From contig JAHEZH010000024.1 in the NCBI GenBank assembly GCA_023251155.1, positions 1 through 43,243 on the forward strand: a stretch of DNA of 43,243 nt. The letters run 5' to 3'. Position 1 is the stretch's first letter. Each line of letters opens with the position of its first letter. This DNA comes from Flammeovirgaceae bacterium. Its GTDB lineage: Bacteria; Bacteroidota; Bacteroidia; Cytophagales; Cyclobacteriaceae. Below, in pieces: positions 19,488 through 31,660 of this stretch. A model generated the notes under the pieces. It worked only from the letters and a program-made list of their open reading frames with translations, did no database searches and was not told the DNA's origin. Position numbers and translations under genes: made by a program.

Positions 19488-20157
19488 AGAAAAGTTAGGA
19501 GAGCATTCACTTTCTCCTTCGGCTAAAGCGTGGGAAAAAATAGAAGCTAACCTGGCAAAAAAAAATAAAGGAGTCATCTGGTTCCGTGTAGCCGCTGTAT
19601 TGGCTTTGGTTGGTCTGCTCACATTTATCTGGATCCGGAAGGAAAAAACCGCTTTGCCCGATCAAATGGCAAACCAAGACCAGGTAAAAACTGAAAAAGA
19701 AAAACCGGCTCCTGTTAAAGAGAAAGCAGCGAAGCAACTACTTCCTTCCATCACGCAGCAAACGGTTAAGAAAGAAAACAACACCCTTTCTAAAAAGAAA
19801 CACCAGAACACCATTAACCCAGAACCGGTTTCACCTAAAACAAACAACGAACAGCCTGCTCTGGCAGTGATGAACGAAAAGAAGGAGGAAGTGCCGGTCA
19901 TCACCACCGAAGTGAAAAGTGCGCAGGTAACCACTCCCAAATCAATCAAGCTCACGTTTTCCTTGCCTTCGCTAAAAGAAGAGGTGAATGAAGCTGAGCA
20001 GGCAGTAGCGGCAACCGAAGAGAAGAAAAGCACTTTACAGAAAGCAGTCAATGATATCCGCACAGGCGATGTATTGGGTAGTCTGCGTGATGCAAAGGAC
20101 GATTTGTTTGCCTGGGAATTCAAAAAAGACAAAACCAAAAAGACGACATTGAATTGA
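19459..20157 (+). CDS. Putative anti-sigma factor, single-pass membrane protein
   Basis: A 232-residue protein whose start overlaps the ECF sigma factor gene by 29 bases. The N-terminal ~37 residues are cytoplasmic and contain a helical SPSAKAWEKIEANLAKKN segment, followed by one membrane helix (about 38-59). The remainder is a highly charged, lysine- and glutamate-rich low-complexity region, presumably periplasmic. This topology, and translational coupling to the sigma gene, are what is expected of an anti-sigma factor that holds its sigma at the membrane; there is no recognisable zinc-binding anti-sigma motif, so the call rests on context and topology. Similar proteins are common after ECF genes in Cytophagales-type genomes. 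Confidence 0.7.
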   Translation: MSNKVDKLFKEKLGEHSLSPSAKAWEKIEANLAKKNKGVIWFRVAAVLALVGLLTFIWIRKEKTALPDQMANQDQVKTEKEKPAPVKEKAAKQLLPSITQQTVKKENNTLSKKKHQNTINPEPVSPKTNNEQPALAVMNEKKEEVPVITTEVKSAQVTTPKSIKLTFSLPSLKEEVNEAEQAVAATEEKKSTLQKAVNDIRTGDVLGSLRDAKDDLFAWEFKKDKTKKTTLN

Positions 20158-20214
20158 GTGATTTCATTATCCCGCCATTCGGTGCCGATTGACTAACCAT
20201 TAACTACAACAATC

Positions 20215-21213
20215 ATGAAACGATTACTTGCAATAGCGATACTAGCACTTACTTTTTATCATTCCACGTTCAGCCAAAATGCCGATACTGTAGAAATCCA
20301 TGTAGGTGATTCCAGTAAAGTCACTTTCCGGGTTCAGAATAAAAAAGACCTGGAGACGTTGAAGAAATACGACTTTCAAGCCGTAGTCCATGACCTGGTT
20401 TCAAAACTGGAACAGCGTGATAGTTCTTCACTGAAAAAACCGGCCAGCGATTACCTTACATCAAACACTTCTGTTGCCACTACGGACACTGCTCCTGAGG
20501 AAGAAACCTGGGAAGAGAATACTTATCGCAGTAAAAGAGATCGCCGAAGAGACCGTTATCATTATCGAAGACGCACCTATCATTCCATCAACTTTGATTT
20601 GGGTACTAACAATTATTTATCCGATGGAAAATTCCCGGATGAAAACAATAACCTCTATTCCGTCAAGCCATGGGGATCGTGGTACGTGGGTATCAACTCC
20701 ATTCAACGCTCACGTGTGGCTGGAAAATTCTTTGTAGAATGGGGAGGAGGAGTAAGCTGGTACAACTTCAAATTTCAAAACCCTGGCGTGCTGATGTCAA
20801 AAGATAATAACAGTGTGCTCTTCACTGAAGATCCACGCGATGTGGATTTCAAGAAAAGTAAATTGACGGCCTGCTATCTCAATTTATCGCTGGTACCGGT
20901 GATCGATTTCGGAGGCAACCGCAGAAAGTCAATGATGTTTGACAGCGATCATTCGGAATCCGTACGTTTTGGTGCCGGGCCTTACATTGGTTACCGCATC
21001 GGCAGCTATACCAAACAAGTGTATAAGGAAGAAGGCGATAAACAAAAAGACCGCAATCACGACAGCTTTTATTTGGATAACATTCGTTACGGTGTGCGCT
21101 TCCAGTTTGGGTTCAGCGATGTGGATCTGTTCTTCAACTATGACCTCAACGAACTATTCGTTGCCAATAAAGGACCAAAGTTAAACGCCTTCAGCTTCGG
21201 AATTACTTTATAA
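20215..21213 (+). CDS. Predicted outer-membrane beta-barrel protein
   Basis: A 332-residue exported protein with signal peptide (MKRLLAIAILALTFYHSTFSQ). Residues 22-110 form a charged, helical periplasmic segment ending in an arginine-rich patch (RSKRDRRRDRYHYRRR). From about residue 120 on, alternating short amphipathic strands dominate (SINFDLGTNNYL, GSWYVGINSIQRSRVAGKFFVEWGGGVSWYNF, SVRFGAGPYIGYRIGSYT, VRFQFGFSDVDLFFNYD), with the last strand AFSFGITL at the end, as expected of a barrel inserted in the outer membrane. It is the third gene of the sigma/anti-sigma set, and could be the regulated target or the sensor. A terminator follows. Confidence 0.82.
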   Translation: MKRLLAIAILALTFYHSTFSQNADTVEIHVGDSSKVTFRVQNKKDLETLKKYDFQAVVHDLVSKLEQRDSSSLKKPASDYLTSNTSVATTDTAPEEETWEENTYRSKRDRRRDRYHYRRRTYHSINFDLGTNNYLSDGKFPDENNNLYSVKPWGSWYVGINSIQRSRVAGKFFVEWGGGVSWYNFKFQNPGVLMSKDNNSVLFTEDPRDVDFKKSKLTACYLNLSLVPVIDFGGNRRKSMMFDSDHSESVRFGAGPYIGYRIGSYTKQVYKEEGDKQKDRNHDSFYLDNIRYGVRFQFGFSDVDLFFNYDLNELFVANKGPKLNAFSFGITL

Positions 21214-21231
21214 CCAAATTCACCATCACTG

Positions 21232-21272
21232 AAAGGCAGGAGCAATGATTCCATTACTCCTGCCTTTTGTTC
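21232..21272 (+). terminator. Intrinsic terminator after the beta-barrel gene
   Basis: AAAGGCAGGAG (21232-21242) and CTCCTGCCTTT (21257-21267) pair perfectly over 11 bp, followed by TTGTTCTTT. It lies between convergent genes, and the AAA-start of the left arm means it may also act weakly in the other direction. Confidence 0.88.
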
Positions 21273-21273
21273 T

Positions 21274-21774
21274 TTAAACCAGTTCGCCTTTTAAAATCAG
21301 TTCACGCTCATCCCCCTTCAGTTGAAGCTGACCGCTTAATCGTTTGGGTGTTGGCCGTTGAAGTAAGATATAGAGAAGGCAGATCATGAAAAATCCAATA
21401 AACCACTCTTCTGCCGTAAGCATAAAACCAACAAGCACAATCACCGATGATGAAACCCCTATGCTCATTTTCAAGGTAGTGAGTGACGCATACCTGTCCA
21501 GCCTGTCTCCCATTCCTTTCATTTGCCGGATACTTTTTAATTTTAAATACACAACCAAGTGAACACTTGTTAGTTCGAGCACAGCTACAAAAGGCACTAT
21601 TATTTTCAAGTAAAATACAATCTCTTCATCCAGTAACACCAGATTCAAATGGGCAAATCGCTGAAAGAGATACTGGGTAATTAATAGTACCAGAGGCAGC
21701 AATAGCAATGCATAACACCGGCTTTGCAGTCGATAAAAGTATTCCTTGATGGAAGAAAATTTCATGTGTTTCAA
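21274..21774 (-). CDS. Four-helix membrane protein of unknown function
   Basis: A 166-residue integral membrane protein. Four hydrophobic helices can be seen: about residues 21-40, 53-75, 105-120 and 124-140, arranged as two pairs, with a basic loop (LKLKSIRQMKGMGDRLDRY) between them that should be cytoplasmic by the positive-inside rule. The C-terminus is a short soluble tail. I do not recognise the family. The ATG at 21774 is followed three codons later by another; either may be used. It is transcribed alone, convergent with the barrel gene, with 170 bases to the TetR gene that diverges from it. Confidence 0.7.
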   Translation of the reverse strand: MKHMKFSSIKEYFYRLQSRCYALLLLPLVLLITQYLFQRFAHLNLVLLDEEIVFYLKIIVPFVAVLELTSVHLVVYLKLKSIRQMKGMGDRLDRYASLTTLKMSIGVSSSVIVLVGFMLTAEEWFIGFFMICLLYILLQRPTPKRLSGQLQLKGDERELILKGELV

Positions 21775-21945
21775 CTTTATATTATATTGAGCGCTATCGG
21801 AATAAAAATCAATCCTGGTCTTACTTTCAGTTCAATAGCGTTGTGAAATACCTTGCTTAACCGAGTTGAAAGATCGCCTCACGGCTGATGGATATTTCAA
21901 GTATCAAAATTAATTATTTATCTTCGGGATTAATTGATCGGAAAG

Positions 21946-22545
21946 ATGGGAACGTTGGACACTTTAAACTCGCTATCACGCAAAGAACAAGTTATTCGTA
22001 AAGCAGCTGAACTGTTTCGGATAAAAGGTTATGCGGCTTCCTCCATGCGCGATCTGGCGCAAATGCTTGGCATTGAAGCAGCAAGCCTTTACTCACACAT
22101 TCGTTCCAAAGAAGAAATACTTCAAAGCCTTTGCTTCGACATGGCCACCGAATTCCGTAAGTCACTGGAAGAAGTAGAAAAACAAAACGTAGGGGCCAGC
22201 GAAAAGCTGAAAAACGGTATCATCGGCCACATACAAGTGATGGCCAAAGACCTTACTGCTTCTGCTGTTTTCATGAATGAGCACCGTCACCTGAGTGCCC
22301 CTTTCCTTCGTGATTTTCTTTTGCTTCGTATCAATTACATCAACCGCTTTAAAAACATTATTGAAGAGGGGGTAAAAACAGGAGAGTTTAAAGAGTCGAT
22401 TGATAAAAAACTGGCGGTGATGACGCTCTTCAGTTCACTGAACTGGATGCCTCAATGGTATGATCCCTATAGTCATATTGTGCCTGCCGACCTGGGTAAG
22501 CAACTGGCCGATATGCTGGTGAATGGATTGAAGAAAGAAGGATAA
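21946..22545 (+). CDS. TetR/AcrR-family transcriptional regulator
   Basis: A 199-residue regulator. The N-terminal DNA-binding domain is standard TetR: VIRKAAELFRIKGYAASSMRDLAQMLGIEAASLYSHIRSKEEIL (about residues 15-58). The ligand-binding half includes EHRHLSAPFLRDFLLLRINYINRFKNIIEEGVKTGEF and ends in SLNWMPQWYDPYSHIVPADLGKQLADMLVNGL, a pattern shared with regulators of lipid, phenylacetate or steroid breakdown (KstR2/PaaR-like groups), so an acyl-CoA ligand is plausible. I prefer ATG at 21946 to a TTG at 21934. A TATCTTCG sequence at 21919-21926 resembles the Bacteroidota -7 element. No target genes are adjacent on the same strand. Confidence 0.9.
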   Translation: MGTLDTLNSLSRKEQVIRKAAELFRIKGYAASSMRDLAQMLGIEAASLYSHIRSKEEILQSLCFDMATEFRKSLEEVEKQNVGASEKLKNGIIGHIQVMAKDLTASAVFMNEHRHLSAPFLRDFLLLRINYINRFKNIIEEGVKTGEFKESIDKKLAVMTLFSSLNWMPQWYDPYSHIVPADLGKQLADMLVNGLKKEG

Positions 22546-22605
22546 TCCGCTCAAATACCATTTACGTTAGTTCGCTCCGCAAATATTCCTGCGGAAAATC
22601 CGTAG

Positions 22606-22845
22606 TTAATTCCAACACAAATACGGTCCCGAAAGAAGTTCCACTTCGCGAATCACTGCTTTGAATGCTTCGTAAGGAGAATCGAAGCAGGATTGCAAAT
22701 AGGCTACGGTGCTGCTGTCTTCAGGCAATTCATTATTCATCCACTTCCAGATATCATCTGCCATGATCAGCAGCTCGTTGGAATGAAACCTGGGATAGTA
22801 TTTGTACAACACATCAAGCGCCAGAAGGAAGTGAAGGTATTTCAT
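22606..22845 (-). CDS. Small conserved-looking protein, function unknown
   Basis: A 79-residue soluble, mostly helical protein (MKYLHFLLALDVLYKYYPRF at the start, SPYEAFKAVIREVELLSGPY near the end). Composition is protein-like, with many aromatic residues and no low-complexity tract; the opposite strand also has an open frame (22693-22902), but it has a poorer composition. I do not recognise the family and nothing adjacent explains it. It is convergent with the TetR gene, 60 bases away. Confidence 0.6.
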   Translation of the reverse strand: MKYLHFLLALDVLYKYYPRFHSNELLIMADDIWKWMNNELPEDSSTVAYLQSCFDSPYEAFKAVIREVELLSGPYLCWN

Positions 22846-22861
22846 AAAGGTTTCCCTCTAA

Positions 22862-23146
22862 ATTGTACCGAATATCGAAGATCAGGAAGGCTTCATCGCT
22901 AATTGGGTAAAAAAGTTTTTGAACGGTAAGATAAAGACTACATTAGCGAAAGAGAGTACTTCAGCTAAAGACATCTACCGCACCAGGGGTGATGAGCCGA
23001 TGGAGGCGTGAGAATACGCTGTTTGTGTAGCCGTGAAGTGGAAGAAATATTCAGACAATACCAGACGGGATCATTCGTTTTATGTACTGTCTGAACAACC
23101 ACCTCGAAAAAGTGTTAGTAAAGTTGTTGAGGAACCTAAATTTTGA
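22862..23146 (+). pseudogene. Possible broken small gene with an in-frame TGA
   Basis: This otherwise empty 300-base stretch holds one frame that reads like protein for 94 codons but is split by a TGA at 23009-23011. The first part (49 codons) gives a hydrophilic sequence with EDQEGFIANWVKKFLNG and DIYRTRGDEPMEA. The second (44 codons, ending with TGA at 23144-23146) includes KWKKYSDNTRRDHSFYVLSE. There is no ATG, GTG or TTG at the beginning: the frame is closed by TAA at 22859 and the first codons are ATT GTA. A TTG at 22919 and a GTG at 23033 could start two short separate peptides instead. Missing start plus internal stop suggest decay; a chance open frame in AT-rich DNA remains possible. 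Confidence 0.3.
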
Positions 23147-23149
23147 AAT

Positions 23150-23494
23150 ATGAAACCACAAGTAAAATTGATCGATCTGTTGATGGTCGTGACGGGGTTG
23201 GTTGGAGCGGTGTTGATCTGGTTGCATATCGATCCAAGAGGTACCCTGTTGTATCTGAGTTTTTTATTCTTCGGCTCAAGCCGTGTGATTGAGTTTTTCT
23301 CTACCAATCATTTCGAACGCAACAACCTGAAAGAGGTATTAAAATTAGTCACCTCCGTATTGATTACGATCATTGCAGGCTCTCACCTGATCATCGGTGG
23401 CAAACCGATGTTCGGAGTACTTTCGTTGCTCGTATTGCTGCTGGCCTTCTCTACCCTGGAGCCGCAGAACGATGCCGAATCAGAGACACTGTAA
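23150..23494 (+). CDS. Small membrane protein of unknown function
   Basis: A 114-residue integral membrane protein with four hydrophobic segments: about residues 8-25 (LLMVVTGLVGAVLIWL), 32-50, 64-80 (LVTSVLITIIAGSHLII) and 86-103, with short polar loops and a small acidic C-terminal tail. I do not recognise the family. It is followed 29 bases later by a DinB-fold gene on the same strand, so the two may share a transcript. It starts 3 bases after the end of a possible broken reading frame. Confidence 0.75.
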   Translation: MKPQVKLIDLLMVVTGLVGAVLIWLHIDPRGTLLYLSFLFFGSSRVIEFFSTNHFERNNLKEVLKLVTSVLITIIAGSHLIIGGKPMFGVLSLLVLLLAFSTLEPQNDAESETL

Positions 23495-23523
23495 ATCATC
23501 CCTCACTACTGGTATCTTTCCTG

Positions 23524-23973
23524 ATGGAAAAAGTGATTCATGAACTTCGTGAACTGATTGCCGCATCCGTACTCTTGCTGAAAGATATTCCGGAAAGTGA
23601 TTTTTCGTCAAAGCCGGTTTCGCACAGGTGGAGTAAAAAAGAAATCATGGGGCACCTTATCGACTCTGCTCAAAATAACCTGCGCCGGTTTATTGTATCG
23701 CAATATGAAAGCACTCCTCCGCACATTATTTACCAGCAGGAATTCTGGGTCAGCGCCAACCAATACCAGAAGATGAAAACCAGCGATGTGATTGAGTTAT
23801 GGCGACTCACGAATGCTCAGATCATTTCGGTACTCTCCTCCATGCCTCCCGAAAAACAAGAATTTCTCTGCCAAACCAATGAGCCTAAAACACTTCATTG
23901 GCTGGCCGTAGATTACCTACGCCACACCCGTCATCATTTGAGCCAGGTGGTTTCCATTGGCCTCAACCGGTAA
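23524..23973 (+). CDS. DinB/YfiT-superfamily protein, probable metal-dependent hydrolase or transferase
   Basis: A 149-residue four-helix-bundle protein of the DinB superfamily (DinB_2 type). The three metal-ligand histidines are visible in the usual places: one in the EIMGHLIDSAQNN segment (about residue 44), and two in YLRHTRHHLSQV near the C-terminus (about 134-139). HRWSKKE is the typical entry motif before the first histidine. Members use zinc or nickel and act as thiol-dependent S-transferases or hydrolases in stress defence; this one's substrate is unknown. It follows a small membrane protein and ends before the long leader of the sulfite reductase operon. Confidence 0.88.
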   Translation: MEKVIHELRELIAASVLLLKDIPESDFSSKPVSHRWSKKEIMGHLIDSAQNNLRRFIVSQYESTPPHIIYQQEFWVSANQYQKMKTSDVIELWRLTNAQIISVLSSMPPEKQEFLCQTNEPKTLHWLAVDYLRHTRHHLSQVVSIGLNR

Positions 23974-24031
23974 ACCACTACCCGCCACTCCAAACAAATT
24001 CGCTCTAATGTATTGGATCACAAACAGTTGT

Positions 24032-24090
24032 TCGTAAATAATAATAGCCAATTAGTTACGATAACTATTGATTCTTACGAAGTATCGTAA
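24032..24090. promoter_or_regulatory. Cluster of four TTACGA/TCGTAA half-sites upstream of the sulfite reductase promoter
   Basis: The hexamer TTACGA or its complement occurs four times in 59 bases: TCGTAA at 24032-24037, TTACGA at 24056-24061, TTACGA at 24075-24080 and TCGTAA at 24085-24090. The last two form the perfect 16-bp palindrome TTACGAAGTATCGTAA (24075-24090), which sits exactly between the proposed -33 and -7 promoter elements, where a bound repressor would block RNA polymerase. The regulator is unknown. Confidence 0.5.
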
Positions 24091-24098
24091 TACATTTG
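24068..24098 (+). promoter_or_regulatory. Bacteroidota-type promoter for the sulfite reductase leader
   Basis: TTG at 24068-24070 and TACATTTG at 24091-24098 match the Bacteroidota -33 TTG and -7 TAnnTTTG elements with a 20-base spacer, inside the normal 19-21 range. Transcription would start near 24105, giving a leader of about 195 bases before the reductase ATG and placing the leader peptide start about 20 bases into the RNA. Confidence 0.65.
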
Positions 24099-24125
24099 AC
24101 AAACTCTATTAAGTAGATAGAATTT

Positions 24126-24218
24126 ATGTATTACTCAGCACCCATAGCAACTGAATTTAAAACAGCTCCCTGTTGGCATTGTAAACCACATGCGTATCTA
24201 CCAGCAGGAAAGCTTTAA
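24126..24218 (+). CDS. 30-residue leader peptide with a Cys-Trp-His-Cys run (attenuator control peptide)
   Basis: A complete short reading frame of 30 codons plus TAA, read from ATG 24126, lying in the leader of the sulfite reductase operon. Codons 16-19 are TGT TGG CAT TGT, giving Cys-Trp-His-Cys, in a peptide that reads ...KTAPCWHCKPHAYLPAGKL. The two cysteine codons lie at 24171-24173 and 24180-24182. The stop codon overlaps the RNA segment that would otherwise act as antiterminator. I infer that it is translated to sense cysteinyl-tRNA and has no function as a protein, like the trp, his and thr leader peptides. No Shine-Dalgarno sequence is visible, which is normal here. A free-standing small protein with a CxxC motif is the alternative. 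Confidence 0.65.
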   Translation: MYYSAPIATEFKTAPCWHCKPHAYLPAGKL

Positions 24219-24283
24219 CTCACACATGAACTAATATTTAAACCCGAAGAAGCCTTTCCTGTACAACGGAGAGGCTTTTTTTT
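24164..24283 (+). promoter_or_regulatory. Transcription attenuator (alternative 1:2, 2:3 and 3:4 hairpins)
   Basis: Four RNA segments can pair in mutually exclusive ways. 1:2 - CCTGTTGG (24169-24176) with CCAGCAGG (24201-24208), 8 bp with one G-U, plus AGCT/AGCT (24164-24167 with 24211-24214). 2:3 (antiterminator) - GCAGGAAAGCTT (24204-24215) with 24250-24262, 12 bp including one G-U and one bulged C at 24253. 3:4 (terminator) - 24250-24259 with 24268-24277. A ribosome waiting at the Cys codons covers segment 1, so 2:3 forms and transcription continues. A ribosome that reaches the leader stop covers segment 2, so 3:4 forms and transcription stops. Pairings are seen in the sequence; the mechanism is inferred by analogy with amino-acid biosynthesis attenuators. 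Confidence 0.7.
24250..24283 (+). terminator. Attenuator terminator before the sulfite reductase gene
   Basis: AAGCCTTTCC (24250-24259) pairs with GGAGAGGCTT (24268-24277) over 10 bp with one G-U, an eight-base loop, and then eight Ts (24276-24283). It lies 17 bases before the reductase ATG and after its promoter, so it can only act as a conditional terminator of the leader transcript. Confidence 0.88.
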
Positions 24284-24300
24284 GACCCAAGAAGAACAAA

Positions 24301-26412
24301 ATGGAAAGTTTCAGAACAGAATTGGAAGACATTAACAATCCAATCGTAGCCCGCGACATCATTGAGCTGGAAAAGAAAATCCGCTTATTTCAGGAAGGAA
24401 AAATTGATACCGATAAGTTTCGCAGCATGCGCCTGGCACGAGGCATCTACGGCCAGCGGCAGCCGGGAGTACAAATGATTCGCATTAAACTTCCTTTGGG
24501 GCGCATCACCACCAAACAACTCCGGAGAATAGCTGACATCTCAGACGAATATGCAAGCAGCAACCTGCGCGCCACTACCCGTCAGGATATTCAAATTCAT
24601 TTTGTAAGCCTGGACAAAACACCGGAGCTGTGGGCCAAGCTGGAGAAAGATGAAATCACCCTTCGCGAAGCATGCGGGAATACCGTGCGAAACATAACCG
24701 CTTCCGCTATGGCGGGAATCGATCCTAAAGAACCCTTTGATGTGACTCCTTATGCACATGAAATGTTTCAGTACTTCCTGCGTAATCCAATCAGCCAGGA
24801 AATGGGACGTAAGTTCAAGATTGCGTTTTCATCGAGCGAAGAAGATACCGCTTATACCTTCATTCATGATCTGGGCTTTCTTCCCAAAATAAAAGATGGC
24901 AAGCGCGGATTTAAAGTAGTGATTGGCGGAGGGCTGGGAGCCAATCCCTACCTGGCCCAGGTGGCGTTTGAGTTTCTGGAGGAAGATCAGATCATGCCGT
25001 TCACCGAAAGTATCATTCGCGTGTTCGATCGCTTTGGTGAACGCAATCGCAGAATGAAAGCGCGTTTGAAATTTCTGGTCGATGAAATCGGATTGCCTGA
25101 ATTAATGCGTCTGGCTGAAGAAGAGCGCATCGCGTTAAAGCGAAAAGTGTATCAAGTCAATGAAGACAGTTTGCCTGACCCTGAGTTATCCGAATTTGAA
25201 TCAGAAGCAGAACCTGAATTCATTGACGAACACCGCTACCAGAGCTGGCATTCCACCAATATCGTAGAACAAAAGCAGGAAGATCTGTTTGGTGTGTACA
25301 TCAAACTTCCCCTGGGCAATCTCTCTTCGGATAAAGCAAGAAAGCTGGCCGATATCGTGGATAAGTATGCCGCGAATGAAATGCGTATTACTATCAATCA
25401 AGGATACCTCATTCGCCATGTACGGCCGCACGCACTTCGGCACTTATATGTAGCCCTGGACGAACTTGGCCTGGCCGAACCTGGCTTTGACAGCGTGGGC
25501 GATATCACTGCCTGCCCGGGAACCGACTCCTGTAACCTGGCCATCTCGGACAGTACTAACATTTCATTGGAGTTTGAGCGCGTTATCCGTGAGGAGTTTC
25601 CGGACCTGATTTATAATAATGACATCAAAATAAAAATCAGCGGTTGCCCTAACTCCTGCGGGCAACATGGCCTTGCCGGAATCGGTTTTCATGGAAGTAC
25701 CATTAAGGACAAACAAGGAAAAGTTTTACCAGCCCTGGTGGTGTTATTAGGTGGCGGAAAGTTGAAGAATGGGGAGGGCATTATTTCTGATAAACTCATT
25801 AAGCTGCCAAGCCGACGTGGCCCGGACGCCTTGCGTATTCTGCTTAGAGATTACGAAACCAATAGCATTGATGGAGAGTATTACCATAGCTACTTCACCC
25901 GCCAGGGAAGAAATCATTTTTACAATCTGTTGAAACCACTGGGTGATGTAACGAATACATTGACCACCGAATACATCGACTGGGGGCAGGAAGAGCGCTT
26001 CATCCTTCACACGGCAGTAGGTGAGTGTGCCGGGGTGATCATTGATCTGGTGGCTACGCTTTTCTATGAATCAGAAGAGAAGCTGGCGTTGGCAAAAGAA
26101 AATTTCAACAATAAACACTATGCCGATTCAATTTATCATAGCTACAGTGCCTTCATCAACACGGCAAAAGCATTGCTTCTGACTAAAGAGATCAAGCCCA
26201 GTACTCAGATCCAATTGCTGAATGATTTTCAGCAACACTTTGTAGACAGTGGTTTGTTTCCTTTTGAGGGTGACTTCAAAGAATTTGTATTGCGCATCAA
26301 CAAGAATCAACCCGGAGCTGATTTTGCCGCTCAATACATGAATGATTCCTCCAAGTTTTTAAGTGATATCGAAGCCTTCAGAGCAAAAGAAAACGAAGCC
26401 ATCGTAAAATGA
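24301..26412 (+). CDS. Siroheme-dependent sulfite/nitrite reductase fused to a C-terminal HEPN-like domain
   Basis: A 703-residue reductase, about 120-150 residues longer than usual. It has the duplicated ferredoxin-like and siroheme/[4Fe-4S] halves: PGVQMIRIKLPLGRI (about 55-69) and LFGVYIKLPLGNLS (about 329-342) are the paired substrate-side repeats; the cluster ligands are Cys405 and Cys411 (ACPGTDSCNLAIS) and Cys449 and Cys453 (GCPNSCGQHG). Residues about 575-695 form an all-helical region with YADSIYHSYSAFINTAKALLL, resembling HEPN domains. The enzyme reduces sulfite to sulfide (or nitrite to ammonia); the Cys-type attenuator upstream and the siroheme gene downstream favour sulfite assimilation. 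The next gene overlaps by 4 bases (ATGA), so translation is coupled. Confidence 0.9.
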   Translation: MESFRTELEDINNPIVARDIIELEKKIRLFQEGKIDTDKFRSMRLARGIYGQRQPGVQMIRIKLPLGRITTKQLRRIADISDEYASSNLRATTRQDIQIHFVSLDKTPELWAKLEKDEITLREACGNTVRNITASAMAGIDPKEPFDVTPYAHEMFQYFLRNPISQEMGRKFKIAFSSSEEDTAYTFIHDLGFLPKIKDGKRGFKVVIGGGLGANPYLAQVAFEFLEEDQIMPFTESIIRVFDRFGERNRRMKARLKFLVDEIGLPELMRLAEEERIALKRKVYQVNEDSLPDPELSEFESEAEPEFIDEHRYQSWHSTNIVEQKQEDLFGVYIKLPLGNLSSDKARKLADIVDKYAANEMRITINQGYLIRHVRPHALRHLYVALDELGLAEPGFDSVGDITACPGTDSCNLAISDSTNISLEFERVIREEFPDLIYNNDIKIKISGCPNSCGQHGLAGIGFHGSTIKDKQGKVLPALVVLLGGGKLKNGEGIISDKLIKLPSRRGPDALRILLRDYETNSIDGEYYHSYFTRQGRNHFYNLLKPLGDVTNTLTTEYIDWGQEERFILHTAVGECAGVIIDLVATLFYESEEKLALAKENFNNKHYADSIYHSYSAFINTAKALLLTKEIKPSTQIQLLNDFQQHFVDSGLFPFEGDFKEFVLRINKNQPGADFAAQYMNDSSKFLSDIEAFRAKENEAIVK

Positions 26413-27206
26413 TAACCTATACATCAGACCCGAAGCCACGGCTCACGCTGGTGGGTGCCGGCCCCGGTGATCCGGAATTGATTACCCTCAAAGCAATCAA
26501 TACACTTCGCAGTGCGAACATCGTGCTGTACGACGCATTGGTTGCTCCGGAGATTCTGAAGTTTATTCCGGATCGTATTCCATCCATTGAAGTGGGCAAG
26601 CGTGCCGGAAAGCATTCGTATTCACAGCAAGAGATCAATGAATTAATCGTGGAGAGTGCACTGGCTCATGGCCATGTGGTGCGCTTAAAAGGAGGAGATC
26701 CGTTTGTGTTTGGAAGAGCTACTGAAGAACTGGAAGTAGCACGACTGAACGGCATCCCTGCCGAGGTGATTCCTGGCATCAGCAGCTCGATTGCTGTACC
26801 GGCCAGCATTGGCATACCCGTAACCGCGCGTGGCGTAAGTGAAAGCTTTTGGGTAGTAACCGGCACCACACGCGAAGGTATTCTCTCTGCGGACATCGCA
26901 TTGGCGGCAAAGTCTACAGCCACTGTTGTTGTACTGATGGGGTTGAAGAAGATCCATGAAATCATGGCTCTTTTCGCAGCAGAAGGAAAAAGTGACACAC
27001 CGGTAGCCGTTATTCAAAACGGTACACTGGCCAATCAAAAATCCGTGGTGGGCACCGTGGAAAGTATGGTGAGGCAATTGACGGAAGAGATCATCGGCTC
27101 GCCTGCTGTCATCGTTATCGGGGAAGTGGTACGCTATACCGATCATTTCAAACTGGCCGAAACGTATGCCGGATGTTCACTATCAGCAGCCACCATGAAG
27201 CTTTAA
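26409..27206 (+). CDS. cobA: Uroporphyrinogen-III C-methyltransferase (SUMT)
   Basis: A 265-residue SAM-dependent methyltransferase that makes precorrin-2 from uroporphyrinogen III, the first committed step to siroheme. The tetrapyrrole methylase signatures are complete: LVGAGPGDPELITLKA (about residues 14-29), the VVRLKGGDPFVFGRATEEL block (about 90-108), and PGISSSIAVPASIGIPVTARGVS (about 122-144), with VTGTT and VLMGLKK further on. It is a stand-alone SUMT without the CysG dehydrogenase/ferrochelatase half, so the last siroheme steps must be supplied elsewhere. Its ATG overlaps the stop of the siroheme reductase by four bases, so enzyme and cofactor synthesis are made from one transcript and share the leader attenuator. 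Confidence 0.95.
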   Translation: MITYTSDPKPRLTLVGAGPGDPELITLKAINTLRSANIVLYDALVAPEILKFIPDRIPSIEVGKRAGKHSYSQQEINELIVESALAHGHVVRLKGGDPFVFGRATEELEVARLNGIPAEVIPGISSSIAVPASIGIPVTARGVSESFWVVTGTTREGILSADIALAAKSTATVVVLMGLKKIHEIMALFAAEGKSDTPVAVIQNGTLANQKSVVGTVESMVRQLTEEIIGSPAVIVIGEVVRYTDHFKLAETYAGCSLSAATMKL

Positions 27207-27260
27207 TTCAAAACCGTCCGAATTTTATTACATCCCACTTCAAAGGAAGTTTAAACATTT

Positions 27261-27268
27261 TACTTTTG
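27261..27268 (+). promoter_or_regulatory. Candidate -7 promoter element for the lipoprotein gene
   Basis: TACTTTTG matches TAnnTTTG exactly. It lies 40 bases before the GTG chosen as the start of the lipoprotein gene, which supports that start. No TTG is visible about 20 bases upstream, so the promoter is incomplete by consensus. Confidence 0.4.
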
Positions 27269-27307
27269 CACCTCGTATATGGTGCACTGGCTATAATTGT
27301 TACCGAA

Positions 27308-27913
27308 GTGAAAACAGGCGGAATCTTTCTTTTTAGTGTGTTGGGCTTGCTGCTTGCTTCCTGTATGAAGAAAGAGGAAGCCTCTGGTGCCAGTTTTACA
27401 CACGTGGATTCCCTCAACGAAACCTACCTGATGATGCAGGACTCCATGCTGCACACCTGGAATGTGATGATCAAAGACGAAAATGAAAAACTTCAGCACA
27501 TCAACCGGTTATTAAAAAAACTGGAAGACGATGATTTTTATGATCAGACGGAGGTGCACTCTCTTCAGGAACGCCTCAATCAGCTGGAGCGCATTCGTTT
27601 CAGTCAAAAATCGATGAGCAATTCACACGTAGTGGAAGAATACGATTTTGCGGCAACTACCCTGATCTCCGAAATCATTGCGCTGGTGGAATCCGATCCT
27701 GATTTCTTTAAAAACAAGGACCTGCAACAGCTTACCGATCTGATTAAACTGGCCGATCAGCGTGTATCTACATACCGTGAGGAATACGATGCCGTAGTGC
27801 TTCCCTTCAACGAGTTCTTAAAGAAAAACGGAGCCGATCTGAAAGAAATAGCACCTGACTGGACAGGCGAACTAAAACCTACTTTCTCCGAGCAGGAAGA
27901 AGAACAGCCGTAG
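27308..27913 (+). CDS. Predicted lipoprotein with helical, coiled-coil-prone mature region
   Basis: A 201-residue protein. The frame is open from ATG 27173, but that start lies within the SUMT gene and would put a long tail before the signal sequence. GTG at 27308 instead gives a compact lipoprotein signal (basic residue, GGIFLFSVLGLLL, lipobox LASC with Cys18) and fits a -7 element 40 bases upstream. The mature part is rich in Glu, Lys, Leu and Gln with heptad-like stretches (about 45-100: DSMLHTWNVM, ENEKLQHINRLLKKLEDD, VHSLQERLNQLERIRF) and later DLIKLADQRVSTYREEYD, so it is probably a helical bundle or coiled coil in the periplasm. Family not recognised. trmN6-like gene follows after 36 bases. 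Confidence 0.7.
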   Translation: MKTGGIFLFSVLGLLLASCMKKEEASGASFTHVDSLNETYLMMQDSMLHTWNVMIKDENEKLQHINRLLKKLEDDDFYDQTEVHSLQERLNQLERIRFSQKSMSNSHVVEEYDFAATTLISEIIALVESDPDFFKNKDLQQLTDLIKLADQRVSTYREEYDAVVLPFNEFLKKNGADLKEIAPDWTGELKPTFSEQEEEQP

Positions 27914-27949
27914 CAGGTCCGCCCAAATCTATTTTGTTTCTTTGCGCAG

Positions 27950-28651
27950 GTGAGCAAGCCGTTTCAATTCAAACAATTCAGCTTACGCGATGATCAGTGC
28001 GCCATGAAAATAGGCACTGACGGAGTTCTTTTAGGAGCCTGGGTCAATGTCGATCATGCAAAAACGGTTCTTGATATTGGTGCTGGTTCGGGGCTAATTG
28101 CCCTGATGATTGCCCAGCGGAGCAAAGTGGCTGAACAAATAATGGCCGTAGAGCTGGGAAAAGAGGATGCGCAGCAGGCAACCGAAAACGCTCTGGCTTC
28201 GCCCTGGCCCTCCAGGATCCAGGTACATCAGTCACGCATTCAGGATTTCCGTTCTGATCATTCCTTCCATTTGATTGTCAGTAATCCCCCCTTTTTTAAC
28301 AACAGCCTCCTGCCTCCCTCCGGCAAACGGAAAGCAGCCCGCCATACTGAAAGTCTTTCTTACCAGGACCTGTTAGCATCAGCCGAAAGGCTTATTACCA
28401 CTGGCGGCATTTTTGCAGTAGTGCTCCCCGCCAGGGAAGGTGCGCTTTTTATCAGTATGGCACAATTTCACGGGTTTTATCCCTCACGACAGTGTGCAGT
28501 GTACACGAGAGCAAGCAAGCCTCAGGAGCGATGGCTACTGGAATTTTCGAGACAGCCCAGCCCTGCTCACATTGAAAAACTGATACTTTTCACGGAGGGA
28601 AATGAAAGGTCGCCGGAGTATGAAAAATTAACAGAACTATTTTATCTTTAA
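27950..28651 (+). CDS. trmN6: tRNA1(Val) (adenine(37)-N6)-methyltransferase, TrmN6 type
   Basis: A 233-residue class I SAM-dependent methyltransferase acting on the exocyclic amine of adenine in tRNA. The family opening FKQFSLRDDQCAMKIGTDGVLLGAW (about residues 7-31) is the best evidence, with the SAM site LDIGAGSGLIAL (41-52) and the catalytic NPPF motif at 112-115 (VSNPPFFNNSL), typical of N6-adenine enzymes. C-terminal half has the ARHTESLSYQDLLASAERLI and KPQERWLLEF blocks of the YfiC/TrmN6 group. The start is GTG 27950. A TTTCTTTG sequence at 27937-27944, one base off the -7 consensus, would put the transcript start almost on the GTG. Confidence 0.9.
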   Translation: MSKPFQFKQFSLRDDQCAMKIGTDGVLLGAWVNVDHAKTVLDIGAGSGLIALMIAQRSKVAEQIMAVELGKEDAQQATENALASPWPSRIQVHQSRIQDFRSDHSFHLIVSNPPFFNNSLLPPSGKRKAARHTESLSYQDLLASAERLITTGGIFAVVLPAREGALFISMAQFHGFYPSRQCAVYTRASKPQERWLLEFSRQPSPAHIEKLILFTEGNERSPEYEKLTELFYL

Positions 28652-28721
28652 ACTCTATAGAGATTAAGGTCTTTCGATAATCAAATTTTAATCCTGATAA
28701 TCAATTCGTTACAAAAAAATC

Positions 28722-28743
28722 AATATATGTTTAAACATATATT
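28722..28743. promoter_or_regulatory. Perfect 22-bp palindrome upstream of yceI, candidate MarR operator
   Basis: The 22 bases are their own exact reverse complement, with the centre at 28732/28733 and core ATATGTTTAAACATAT. It lies 40 bases before the yceI ATG, in the promoter zone. MarR regulators bind such AT-rich palindromes as dimers, and a marR gene follows yceI, so self-regulation of this two-gene unit is a natural inference. Confidence 0.6.
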
Positions 28744-28782
28744 ATTAAAACTTCGTTACTTCGTACATCAATTAAAAAAACT

Positions 28783-29355
28783 ATGAAAAAACTCAATCTC
28801 CTATTTGCAGCCCTGTTATTAACTGGTGCTACATTCGCACAATCTACCTGGTCTGTGGATAAAGCCCACGCTAAACTAGGATTCACCGTTACTCACTTGC
28901 TGGTATCAGAAGTGGATGGCGCGTTCGACAAGTTCGATTCTAAAATCACTTCTTCCAAAGACGATTTTTCTGATGCTGTAATTGAATTGACTGCCGAAAC
29001 GGCTAGTGTGAACACGGCTAACGAAAATCGTGACAAGCACTTGAAAAGCCCTGACTTTTTCGATGTTGAAAAATTCCCAACGCTTACTTTCAAGAGTACT
29101 TCCGTTAAAAAAGTAGATGCTAAAAACTACAAAGTAACTGGCGATCTTACTTTCCACGGAGTAACTAAGTCGGTAACCCTTGATGCTACGTTGAATGGTA
29201 CTACCGTTCACCCTTACAACAAGAAGACCATTGCTGCTTTCCGTGTAGGAGGCGTGATCAAGCGTTCTGACTTTGCTTTCGGAGCCGGTACTCCTGCTGC
29301 CGTAGTTGGTGACGAAGTGACTTTGCTTGCTAAAGTAGAGTTTATCAAAAACTAA
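28783..29355 (+). CDS. YceI-family periplasmic protein
   Basis: A 190-residue exported lipocalin-like protein with signal peptide (MKKLNLLFAALLLTGATFAQ). The mature protein has the YceI hallmarks: STWSVDKAHAKLGFTVTHLLVSEVDGAFDKF at the N-terminus, ASVNTANENRDKHLKSPDFFDVEKFPTLTFKS in the middle, the VTGDLTFHGVTKSVTLDATL strand pair, and a final EVTLLAKVEF strand. Members form a long hydrophobic tunnel and bind isoprenoid or other lipids in the periplasm; some respond to acid or base stress. A 22-bp palindrome precedes it, and a terminator followed by a marR gene comes after. Confidence 0.95.
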   Translation: MKKLNLLFAALLLTGATFAQSTWSVDKAHAKLGFTVTHLLVSEVDGAFDKFDSKITSSKDDFSDAVIELTAETASVNTANENRDKHLKSPDFFDVEKFPTLTFKSTSVKKVDAKNYKVTGDLTFHGVTKSVTLDATLNGTTVHPYNKKTIAAFRVGGVIKRSDFAFGAGTPAAVVGDEVTLLAKVEFIKN

Positions 29356-29371
29356 GTTTATATTAGAAGAG

Positions 29372-29406
29372 GCAACAGGCAGCATTAACACTGCCTGTTG
29401 CTTTTT
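29372..29406 (+). terminator. Intrinsic terminator between yceI and marR
   Basis: GCAACAGGCAG (29372-29382) pairs perfectly over 11 bp with CTGCCTGTTGC (29391-29401), an eight-base loop, then TTTTTA. It ends only a few bases before the marR ATG at 29411, so marR is either read by partial read-through, giving less regulator than YceI, or from a promoter not seen here. Confidence 0.9.
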
Positions 29407-29410
29407 ATTT

Positions 29411-29860
29411 ATGAAAATTGAAGAAGAAATCAAGCAACCCAAATTCAGAAGCGACTATCAGAAAGTGGCTATTAATCTGATATTCACCGCTAACTGGCTT
29501 ATCAATAAGCAACAGGATTTCTTTAAACCTTACGGCATTACTGCCTCCCAATTCAACATCCTGCGTATTCTGCGCGGACAACACCCCAACAAAATCTCTG
29601 GTGTCGAAATTAAATCCAGGATGCTGGATAAAAATTCGGACATACCGCGATTACTAGACCGGCTTGTCAAAAAGAACCTGATCTTGAAAACAGTTTGCCC
29701 CAGCGATAAACGGGCGGCCGATGTCATCATTACAGAAACAGGGCTTTCCATTCTTTACCAGATTGATGAACTGCTCGATCAGATCGAGTCACGGCAGCTG
29801 AAGCTGACAAAAGAAGAAGCCACTCAATTGAGTGACTTACTTGACAAGTGTCGCGACTAA
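29411..29860 (+). CDS. MarR-family transcriptional regulator
   Basis: A 149-residue winged-helix regulator. The conserved core is present: FFKPYGITASQFNILRILRGQHPNKISGVEIKSRMLDKNSDIPRLLDRLVKKNLI (about residues 37-92), with the recognition helix in SDIPRLLDRLVKKN, and the wing SDKRAADVIITETGLSIL (about 96-114), whose DKR-x4-I-x-IT pattern is the MarR signature. MarR repressors are released by small phenolic or oxidant ligands. It lies directly after the yceI terminator; a 22-bp palindrome before yceI is the probable operator. It is convergent with the oligopeptidase gene, with 78 bases between stops and no terminator seen. Confidence 0.92.
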   Translation: MKIEEEIKQPKFRSDYQKVAINLIFTANWLINKQQDFFKPYGITASQFNILRILRGQHPNKISGVEIKSRMLDKNSDIPRLLDRLVKKNLILKTVCPSDKRAADVIITETGLSILYQIDELLDQIESRQLKLTKEEATQLSDLLDKCRD

Positions 29861-29938
29861 ACGCTGATCATTTCTACTGAGGCACCTCTCTAACATGTTC
29901 CCGCAAGATTAAAGCGGTTTCCAACGTCGAGTCGTGAT

Positions 29939-31660
29939 TTAAATGGCCGCCAATTCTCCTCGTACAAAATCCATCAGTTCCTTAATGTACGCTTTACTGA
30001 AATCAAATTTGATTCCTGCCGCCTGGTACGTTTCAGGTATTGTTTTGGTGTGACCTAATTTCAGCGCATTCATGTAGCCCTCCAGCCCTTTTCGATTATC
30101 CTTTTTGAAATTGCGCCATACGGCCACCGCTCCAAGCTGAGCCATACCGTATTCGATATAATAGAATGGCACCTCATACAAGTGAAGCTGTTTTTGCCAC
30201 AGGTAATTTTTGCCTTCTTCCAATCCCGACCAATCGGTAGTCGTATCGGCAAAGCGATCAAAGGTTTTAATCCAGTTCGTCTTGCGCTCCTCTAATGTGT
30301 GAGTGGGGTTTTCATAGAGCCAATGCTGAAACTTATCGATCGTGGCCACCCAGGGCAAAGTCTCAATCAAATCTTCGAGATGCTCGCGTTTGGCACGTCT
30401 CAATTGCTGTGGATCCGGAAAAAAGAGATCCCAATGATCCATCGATATCAATTCCATGGACATGGAAGCCAACTCCGCTACTTCCATAGGGGGTGATTTA
30501 AAATCGTTCAGCTCCAAATCTTTGGTGAGAAAATTATGTACCGCATGTCCACCCTCATGCATGATGGTGGTCATATCCCGCAAGGTGGAAGTGGCATTCA
30601 TAAAAATGAAGGGCACTCCTATTTCGGCTAACGGATAGTTATAACCACCCGGTGCTTTACCTATCCGTGATTCCAGATCGAGATGGCCCATCTCACGCAT
30701 GATGGAAAGACACTGACCTAAAAACGGATCAAGCCGGCGGAAACATTCAATTGATTTTTCGGTAAGGTCTTTGCCTCCATCAAATGCACTCAAGGCTTCT
30801 CTTCCTTCCGCATCCACTGCTTTATCCCACGGACGAAGGTCTTTTACTTTCAGTTGTGCCTTACGCTCCTTTGCCAGGTCGTTCAGTATAGGAACCACTT
30901 CCGACTGAATGGCATCATGAAAATCAAAACAGTCTTTCGGGGTATAATCAAAACGTCCGTAGGACTTAAACATGTAGTCGCGGAAGTTTTTGAAATCAGC
31001 ATTGATCGCTACCTGGTTGCGAAGTGCAATGAGTTTAGAAAAAAGCTGATCAAGCTGCTCTTTGTCGTTCAGTCTTCGCGTGGTAATTTTTTTATACACT
31101 TCCTCCCGCTTGGCACGGTCGGTGGACATCAGTAAAACACCTGCTTGCTGTAGTGTGAGTTCTTTCCCTTCGATTTCTACCGTCATGGCTCCGGAGAGCT
31201 GCGCATACTTTTGTGTCTCTGTATTGATCTCTGTATAGAGGGGTACGTTGGCCTCACGGAATATTTCCGTTTCCTTCTTCAGGTTACGAATCATCATATC
31301 ATATCCCGTTACCTTCTCCAGTTCTTTGAGATAAGGAGAAGCCAATGCTTTCTTATTCAGTTCATCGGATACGGGGGCAATATGGGGCTGAATATTTTGT
31401 ACAAAATCCATATAGGCTTCGCTGTATTCCTTGTTTTCGGTAAAGCACGTCATCCGGATATAGCGCCACCCCATATCTTCCGATATGATGGACTCCAGCT
31501 CACTGCGGTGATGCAACCATGTTTTAAGGTCGGTTAACGAAAGAAGATCACGGCTCAGCAATTCATCGAAGTACGGCTTCAAAGAATCCCATGAACCAAC
31601 TGTAAAATTTTCAGGAAGAAACGTGCGCACCGGGCGCTGTGGAATAACGATATCACTCAT
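29939..31660 (-). CDS. M3-family metallo-oligopeptidase (oligoendopeptidase F-like)
   Basis: A 573-residue cytoplasmic zinc peptidase that cuts short peptides. I use ATG 31660 (MSDIVIPQRPVRTFLP) rather than an in-frame start at 31696, whose extra residues are unlike the family. Zinc-site HEGGH falls at residues 368-372, in the context ATSTLRDMTTIMHEGGHAVHNFL; the third ligand is a Glu in the PPMEVAELASMSMEL stretch about 25 residues on. The order is an N-terminal helical PepF-type domain, then the M3 catalytic domain ending at about residue 560. There is no signal peptide. It is transcribed alone. The upstream 250-base gap is shared with the divergent antiporter gene. Confidence 0.93.
   Translation of the reverse strand: MSDIVIPQRPVRTFLPENFTVGSWDSLKPYFDELLSRDLLSLTDLKTWLHHRSELESIISEDMGWRYIRMTCFTENKEYSEAYMDFVQNIQPHIAPVSDELNKKALASPYLKELEKVTGYDMMIRNLKKETEIFREANVPLYTEINTETQKYAQLSGAMTVEIEGKELTLQQAGVLLMSTDRAKREEVYKKITTRRLNDKEQLDQLFSKLIALRNQVAINADFKNFRDYMFKSYGRFDYTPKDCFDFHDAIQSEVVPILNDLAKERKAQLKVKDLRPWDKAVDAEGREALSAFDGGKDLTEKSIECFRRLDPFLGQCLSIMREMGHLDLESRIGKAPGGYNYPLAEIGVPFIFMNATSTLRDMTTIMHEGGHAVHNFLTKDLELNDFKSPPMEVAELASMSMELISMDHWDLFFPDPQQLRRAKREHLEDLIETLPWVATIDKFQHWLYENPTHTLEERKTNWIKTFDRFADTTTDWSGLEEGKNYLWQKQLHLYEVPFYYIEYGMAQLGAVAVWRNFKKDNRKGLEGYMNALKLGHTKTIPETYQAAGIKFDFSKAYIKELMDFVRGELAAI

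Follow-up and report, generated by a model that had tools for sequence, protein, structure and literature searches.

Organization of the reductase locus

The window, i.e. the whole stretch of 43,243 nucleotides that was analysed, contains a gene for a siroheme sulfite/nitrite reductase family protein (24301-26412, forward strand, 703 aa; PF01077 and PF03460, NIR_SIR and ferredoxin-like half-domain). Its stop codon is overlapped by the gene for uroporphyrinogen-III C-methyltransferase (SUMT; 26409-27206, same strand), identified by PF00590 and, above cut-off, by TIGR01469. Both genes presumably belong to one operon. In the operons of related bacteria, a siroheme-synthase-type protein comes next. 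In Pontibacter (locus L041, 5537-7063), a siroheme synthase domain encoded in the same operon is fused to a TauE/SafE sulfite exporter domain.

A preliminary description of this DNA, made from its letters, named the two genes as sulfite reductase and SUMT. The latter assignment is settled by TIGR01469. The former is likely from gene context, whereas by sequence the protein is nearest to solved nitrite reductases: its best nine matches among solved structures are nitrite reductases by name. None of the ten NCBIfam models listed gave a score above its cut-off. Because SUMT, the siroheme synthase-TauE fusion in Pontibacter and a leader before cysH in one genome (see below) all favour sulfite over nitrite, the best reading is that the enzyme likely acts on sulfite, for cysteine synthesis. 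The C-terminal end of the reductase (residues 587-641) also matches a HEPN domain (E 1.6e-6).

Leader ORF and alternative RNA structures

The reductase gene is preceded by a leader ORF of 30 codons (24126-24218, forward strand; MYYSAPIATEFKTAPCWHCKPHAYLPAGKL). Codons 16-19 read Cys-Trp-His-Cys, i.e. two Cys within four codons (codon 16 at 24171-24173, codon 19 at 24180-24182). Segment 1 (CCTGTTGG, 24169-24176, forward strand like all segments described here) overlaps Cys codon 16 and has its partner at 24201-24208. Segment 2 (GCAGGAAAGCTT, 24204-24215) constitutes the 5' arm of an antiterminator. Segment 3 (AAGCCTTTCCTGT, 24250-24262), separated by 31 nt from the end of the leader ORF, is both the 3' arm of the antiterminator and the 5' arm of an intrinsic terminator. 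The latter is completed by segment 4 (GGAGAGGCTT, 24268-24277) and a U-tract (24276-24283), from whose end 17 nt lead to the reductase ATG at 24301.

The 2:3 helix consists of 12 pairs, including one G-U, plus one bulged C; the 3:4 stem, mutually exclusive with it, has 10 pairs including one G-U. Duplex energies amount to -17.1 kcal/mol for 2:3, -20.4 kcal/mol for 3:4 and -16.7 kcal/mol for 1:2. Pairing equal to 2:3 was reached by a fraction of 0.0006 of 5000 dinucleotide shuffles of 24177-24243, and pairing equal to 1:2 by a fraction of 0.003 of 5000 such shuffles of 24126-24196. The leader with its Cys-Trp-His-Cys stretch, the 12-bp antiterminator and the 10-bp terminator with eight Ts ending 17 nt before the ATG, all proposed in the preliminary description, are thus borne out.

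A dedicated hairpin search placed the terminator at 24246-24281 (-18.9 kcal/mol); a simple generic scan of 23800-24500 reported no terminators. Rfam yielded no match in the window at gathering score, and searches with five leader peptides hit no family among the NCBIfam leader-peptide models at an E limit of 1. At equilibrium, the full leader RNA folds preferentially as 3:4, so 2:3 must win by forming first.

The trp attenuator possesses a protector 1:2 hairpin, which gives termination in the absence of translation. In our case, significance for the 8-bp 1:2 hairpin was reached in the window (p 0.008) and in none of 11 relatives (p 0.11-0.80). The strong 1:2 hairpin is thus peculiar to the window, and the initial view that everything needed for trp-style attenuation is present went too far. 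RNAalifold detects a five-pair helix that joins the last Cys codons to segment 2 and is kept in the clade. Since these pairs hardly vary, this core neither supports nor refutes the pairing. When RNAs were folded free of ribosomes, segment 3 was predicted to pair upstream at 0.35-0.89 (0.89 in the window). As 2:3 is predicted without a ribosome and no strong 1:2 hairpin is conserved, equilibrium folding predicts that untranslated RNA would read through, which is the opposite of trp.

Conservation in related genomes

From a scan of named genomes, 80 reductase loci were kept. The 13 nearest to the window (L023-L035), 70-79% identical in the best segment, come from Fulvivirgaceae, Chryseosolibacter, Ohtaekwangia, Dawidia, Parachryseolinea, Chryseolinea, Pseudochryseolinea and MAGs. 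A clustered-Cys leader and a GAGCCTTT-type terminator precede the ATG at 12 of these 13 loci. In the same 12, the leader contains 2 to 8 Cys and its stop lies beyond segment 2 or adjoins it. Segment 2 reads GCAGGA in ten loci and ACAGGA in L031, giving [GA]CAGGA in 11 of the 13. The weakest case is L035, where leader and terminator are kept and the CAGGA of segment 2 is not recognisable. Neither clustered-Cys leader nor terminator was found at L028, and L008 (G019, same genus code) has no Cys leader.

In a phylogenetic tree constructed with FastTree, the window and 12 relatives, all with attenuator, group at support 97, and L028 branches outside; the attenuator labels of this tree were set by hand and count L036, L038, L052 and others as attenuator-bearing though the pipeline did not list them. 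L094 was removed from the tree by hand, and L085 was too short.

In an alignment of 13 sequences (A1), 97.7% of the 3:4 cells are paired, and two of the 3:4 pairs display two-sided change (as high in 37 of 500 shuffles). For 2:3, 73.7% of cells are paired, which is not above shuffles (205 of 500). These pair counts indicate that the close clade shows conservation more than covariation, and covariation within it is weak. Of what had been expected from a comparison with relatives, the Cys cluster, the stop position and the terminator were thus recovered (12 of 13 loci), while compensatory changes within the clade are few. In several of L024-L034, a GGATACGTNATGGTCT-like stretch extends across the leader stop in different frames (alignment A4); it is possibly an RNA element.

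Predicted switching by ribosome position

Pairing of segment 3 was examined with the ribosome at defined codons. In this model the ribosome masks the RNA as far as 13 nt past the first base of its A-site codon, and the value read out is how far segment 3 pairs with the remaining upstream RNA before segment 4 exists. For each of the 12 window-clade leaders tested, L027 having been omitted as a near duplicate of L026, predicted pairing was 0.54-0.93 when the ribosome stood at the cluster's best Cys codon and 0.00-0.26 when it stood at the stop.

The analysis was extended to 37 leaders, hand-picked for a Cys-rich leader together with a terminator; for L025, L031 and L034, the Cys cluster was assigned manually. 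Folding in silico gave a switch that is open at Cys and closed at the stop in 34 of them, as against 193 of 740 shuffles of the RNA between the last Cys and the terminator. The exceptions are L061, L195 and L201. Mean pairing of segment 3 was 0.78 at Cys and 0.10 at the stop for real leaders, 0.55 and 0.33 for shuffles. Shut-off occurs 0-7 codons past the last clustered Cys (median 4). Since predicted pairing is high at Cys, low at the stop and exceeds that of shuffles, the geometry of the predicted structures fits ribosome stalling at Cys codons. This agrees with the spacing suggested beforehand for the window, in which a stall at Cys would free segment 2 and a ribosome at the stop would hide it.

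Cysteine-rich leaders in a wider set of genomes

Regions upstream of reductase genes, 149 in all, were taken from the 80 named loci, from 60 further genomes within the order, from eight loci found first and from the window. One was too short (L094) and five duplicates were removed, which left 143. ORFs that start with ATG, span 8-60 codons and contain at least three Cys in six codons are present in 50 of the 143; on the reverse strands they occur in 5 of 143, and in flanking windows in 31 of 1204. No such ORF was detected by this strict definition in the remaining 93 regions; the window leader, having two Cys, is itself outside the 50.

Several leader types can be distinguished: CCCKH in the window clade, MGYEITKVMMHMCGCCWGNSTD in Chitinophaga, TCCMCC in Adhaeribacter and TCCCCCC in Botryobacter. 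Leaders also occur in tandem, namely in Adhaeribacter and, as Cys-run leaders, in L007; the loci with tandem leaders are L007, L118, L119, L063 and L076. Judged by eye, leaders of different lineages share little outside their Cys codons. Terminator and segment 2 vary jointly, the terminator having AGCCTTTCCTG in the window clade and GCCTCC in Chitinophaga; across remote genera, all of segments 2, 3 and 4 change together. Pairing of a leader's own segment 2 with its own segment 3 exceeded mean pairing with foreign partners in 31 of 34 leaders, a set hand-picked for a Cys-rich leader combined with a terminator. As these 34 leaders are related within groups, the evidence is overstated by the nominal Wilcoxon value.

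In Pontibacter and Botryobacter (L041, L045, L046, L051, L060), Cys-run leaders such as MCCCCCCCSC are found without a clear antiterminator-terminator pair. These leaders perhaps use another mode of control.

A second class of leaders with conserved peptide core

Seven leaders (L104, L107, L108, L112, L012, L195, L201) form a second class with the core RCxCWxWCC, in which L108 has Arg in place of the first Cys. L105, a near copy of L104, is kept outside the seven. Over the ten core codons, differences per codon position are 0.11/0.13/0.33, versus 0.61/0.45/0.64 in the eight codons upstream, with the reservation that the core was chosen for looking conserved, that L195 and L201 were found through the C-W-x-W-C-C pattern and that the 21 pairs are not independent. 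Having few differences at all three codon positions, the core points to selection on the peptide beyond Cys.

In genome G103, one RCECWFWCC leader is located before the reductase gene and another before cysH (identified by NF002537 above cut-off). An ORF passing the Cys criterion was found at three of 30 cysH loci: the one of G103 is real, and two, both TTG-started, were judged chance. The C-W-x-W-C-C pattern occurs in 55 of 390 genomes, with 66 places listed. Thirty of these places were inspected as loci (29 judged chance, one reductase leader), and a further eight comprised one leader before cysH, one before a reductase gene and six places judged chance. Five more are known reductase leaders, so that 43 of the 66 places were covered in all. 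A stricter class-wide pattern matched one of 395 genomes, and this match was judged chance. Alignment search with the second class returned eight clear matches in seven genomes, and weak ones from E 3e-4; since all clear matches had been used in building the alignment or found before, this search adds no independent count.

As a speculation, which we hold to be rather unlikely in its entirety, cysteine attenuation at the sulfite reductase operon could be an old and often re-invented form of sulfur control in Bacteroidota, and in one leader class the RC[AE]CW[FH]WCC nascent peptide could co-sense, making the ribosome hypersensitive to cysteine supply or another sulfur signal.

Related elements in the same genome

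The leader peptide of the window has no convincing second copy in its own genome; three further matches have E about 1, and the best of them (L002) was viewed by eye. With an E limit of 10, a covariance model of the close clade (R1) gave 15 matches in this genome; the window came first with 8.4e-9, followed by a match with 0.0245. Nine of the 14 other matches were inspected. None has a convincing Cys leader, and one is a His leader. At 1510-1640 of L238 (G000:C147), a His-run leader (MKTTQNSLHHHHHVTNMRGGYAF) is followed by a terminator (AAGGCTTGCC...GGCAAGCCTTTTTTATT) and then by a protein recognised by eye as HisG-like; this is a likely histidine attenuator. With such an arrangement before a HisG-like protein, ribosome-mediated attenuation is probably in use in the genome of the window. 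No Cys leader was found in the cysH-cysD region of this genome.

Promoter region and palindrome

Upstream of the leader, TTG (24068-24070) and TACATTTG (24091-24098) on the forward strand form a promoter-like pair, which we take to resemble the Bacteroidetes -33/-7 promoter consensus. The letters reported for this pair in the preliminary description are correct, and we regard it as a putative Bacteroidetes-type promoter, from which transcription is predicted to start just upstream of the leader. Of the 37 hand-picked leaders, 22 have a TAnnTT[TCA]G box at most 53 nt before their ATG, a count without chance control. The best sigma-70-type promoter of a generic scan, TTGACA-16-TAGAAT (24096-24123, 11/12; two sites found versus 1.5 expected), would start transcription at or inside the leader. 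Because Bacteroidetes promoters differ from the sigma-70-type consensus, this candidate was set aside.

At the promoter, the palindrome TCTAT-N7-ATAGA occupies 24105-24121. The corresponding pattern YCTAY-N(3-7)-RTAGR is present in the last 320 nt of 69 of the 143 reductase upstream regions, versus a mean of 4.5 and a maximum of 8 in 50 mononucleotide shuffles. Among the loci printed, it is positioned before the leader where one is present and nearer to the reductase gene in leaderless loci. The palindrome is likely an operator for a regulator at the promoter. A transcription factor may act at initiation, and the attenuator may have been added downstream in some lineages. Palindrome-like sites were also seen by eye upstream of the cysH-cysD region of the same genome.

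Proposed mechanism and alternative explanations

We consider it highly probable that 24126-24283 is a ribosome-mediated transcription attenuator sensing charged tRNA-Cys. With ample Cys-tRNA, the ribosome would proceed to the leader stop and cover segment 2, so that the 3:4 terminator would form before the reductase gene. When Cys-tRNA is scarce, the ribosome would stall at Cys codon 16 or 19, with segment 2 just past its leading edge. Free segment 2 would pair with segment 3 once the latter is transcribed, and polymerase would continue into the genes for reductase and SUMT. These downstream genes, a NIR_SIR protein plus SUMT, fit synthesis of the amino acid that is sensed. That low Cys-tRNA would switch the operon on was already part of the preliminary description; its reading as an attenuator is supported in silico by conservation in 12 of the 13 nearest loci and by the predicted switching.

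It is conceivable, if improbable, that the leader acts as a nascent-peptide-assisted sensor, the peptide slowing or arresting the ribosome by means of Trp, Arg or Lys besides Cys-tRNA, or sensing sulfide or metal. This partly overlaps with sensing of tRNA-Cys, and our estimates for the two are not mutually exclusive. Conservation of the RC[AE]CW[FH]WCC core at protein level in the second class argues for such a role, as does the recurrence of Trp adjoining Cys in the window clade and in Chitinophaga. The core was, however, picked for its conserved look, and L195 and L201, two of the seven leaders behind it, came from a search with the C-W-x-W-C-C pattern itself. Moreover, leaders of other lineages have little but Cys at this place (for example TKCCCACCCC in L007). 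A single base separates TGG from TGC and TGT, and mutation may account for part of the Trp.

We regard as very improbable that the Cys leader exerts control at the level of translation or through Rho, as discussed for mycobacteria, the hairpin being secondary. The Cys-run leaders of Pontibacter and Botryobacter, which precede the same gene without a clear terminator plus convincing 2:3, would suit this explanation; on the contrary, the window and the other 36 leaders carry a U-tract hairpin before the gene, though they were picked for the hairpin. That an ordinary terminator, be it a fixed attenuating hairpin or the end of an upstream transcript, merely follows a chance ORF with meaningless Cys codons is hardly credible: short ORFs are indeed common (130 of at least 25 aa overlap 20000-30000) and the window leader has only two Cys, but Cys-rich leaders are about tenfold enriched before the reductase gene, recur at 12 of the 13 nearest named loci and are placed as expected relative to segment 2.

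Comparison with known systems

The attenuator proposed here has no described counterpart for cysteine in Bacteroidota that we found in open-licence full-text literature, which accords with the earlier statement that none of this kind was known. What is known already are Cys leaders in Actinobacteria and Rhodobacterales. Leader-peptide attenuation was suggested for amino-acid operons of Flavobacterium psychrophilum (PMC9723704, in excerpt), a member of Bacteroidota like Flammeovirgaceae bacterium, from which the window comes. In the main text of that paper, 'cysteine' appears once, for a protease, and 'sulfite' is absent. Leader-like sORFs are on record for B. thetaiotaomicron (PMC7366714, in excerpt). 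Excerpts of a Streptomyces reannotation (PMC8079986) contain nothing on Cys leaders, and Bacteroidetes are not named in the text of a premature-terminator survey (PMC2965389).

Control of sulfate assimilation in Bacteroidota is hardly described in the papers found, and the window locus offers a testable cis-acting switch. This switch is recognisable in the sequence and lies in relatives that bear names and are in part cultured, such as Ohtaekwangia, Chryseolinea, Chitinophaga and Adhaeribacter. Tandem leaders, and sequences that change while the geometry stays constant, recommend it for studies of how attenuators originate and disappear. Nascent-chain effects are a question of their own, posed by the leader class with the conserved Cys/Trp peptide.

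Attenuators of the trp type, found at trp and his operons of Proteobacteria, combine a leader containing codons of the end product with alternative 2:3 and 3:4 structures before a biosynthetic operon. The window system shares with them the leader ORF with end-product codons, the 2:3 antiterminator set against 3:4 and the biosynthetic operon downstream. It differs in that it would sense Cys, occurs in Bacteroidota and shows no strong 1:2 hairpin conserved in the 11 relatives compared. As to cysteine, mycobacterial Cys leaders were reportedly shown by Canestrari in 2020 to depend on cysteine supply.

Cysteine-responsive leaders of mycobacteria are also referred to in excerpts of citing papers (PMC13236596, PMC9094748, PMC9031893). 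In Mycobacterium and other Actinobacteria, leaders with Cys runs near the stop were described before cys operons, in the excerpted text without a conserved terminator hairpin (PMC1262725). Both these polycysteine leaders and that of the window place Cys codons ahead of sulfur-assimilation operons, but the window locus has a terminator and an antiterminator, whereas the excerpted text of PMC1262725 gives no conserved terminator hairpin.

The uORFC-8-2 family of Rhodobacterales, as far as excerpts of its description go, lies before cysS, has tandem Cys usually at positions 14 and 15 and a terminator with U-run, and is predicted to act by attenuation (PMC8632094). Cys uORF and terminator stem with U-run are thus common to both systems. 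On the other hand, uORFC-8-2 controls cysteinyl-tRNA synthetase in Alphaproteobacteria and, in the excerpted description, has its Cys codons in the first stem (PMC8632094), while the window leader precedes reductase and siroheme genes; the gene directly downstream codes for a NIR_SIR protein, not cysS, which places the locus outside uORFC-8-2 by location. With the window locus and its relatives, cysteine attenuation by means of an intrinsic terminator would reach a further phylum and a further target enzyme.
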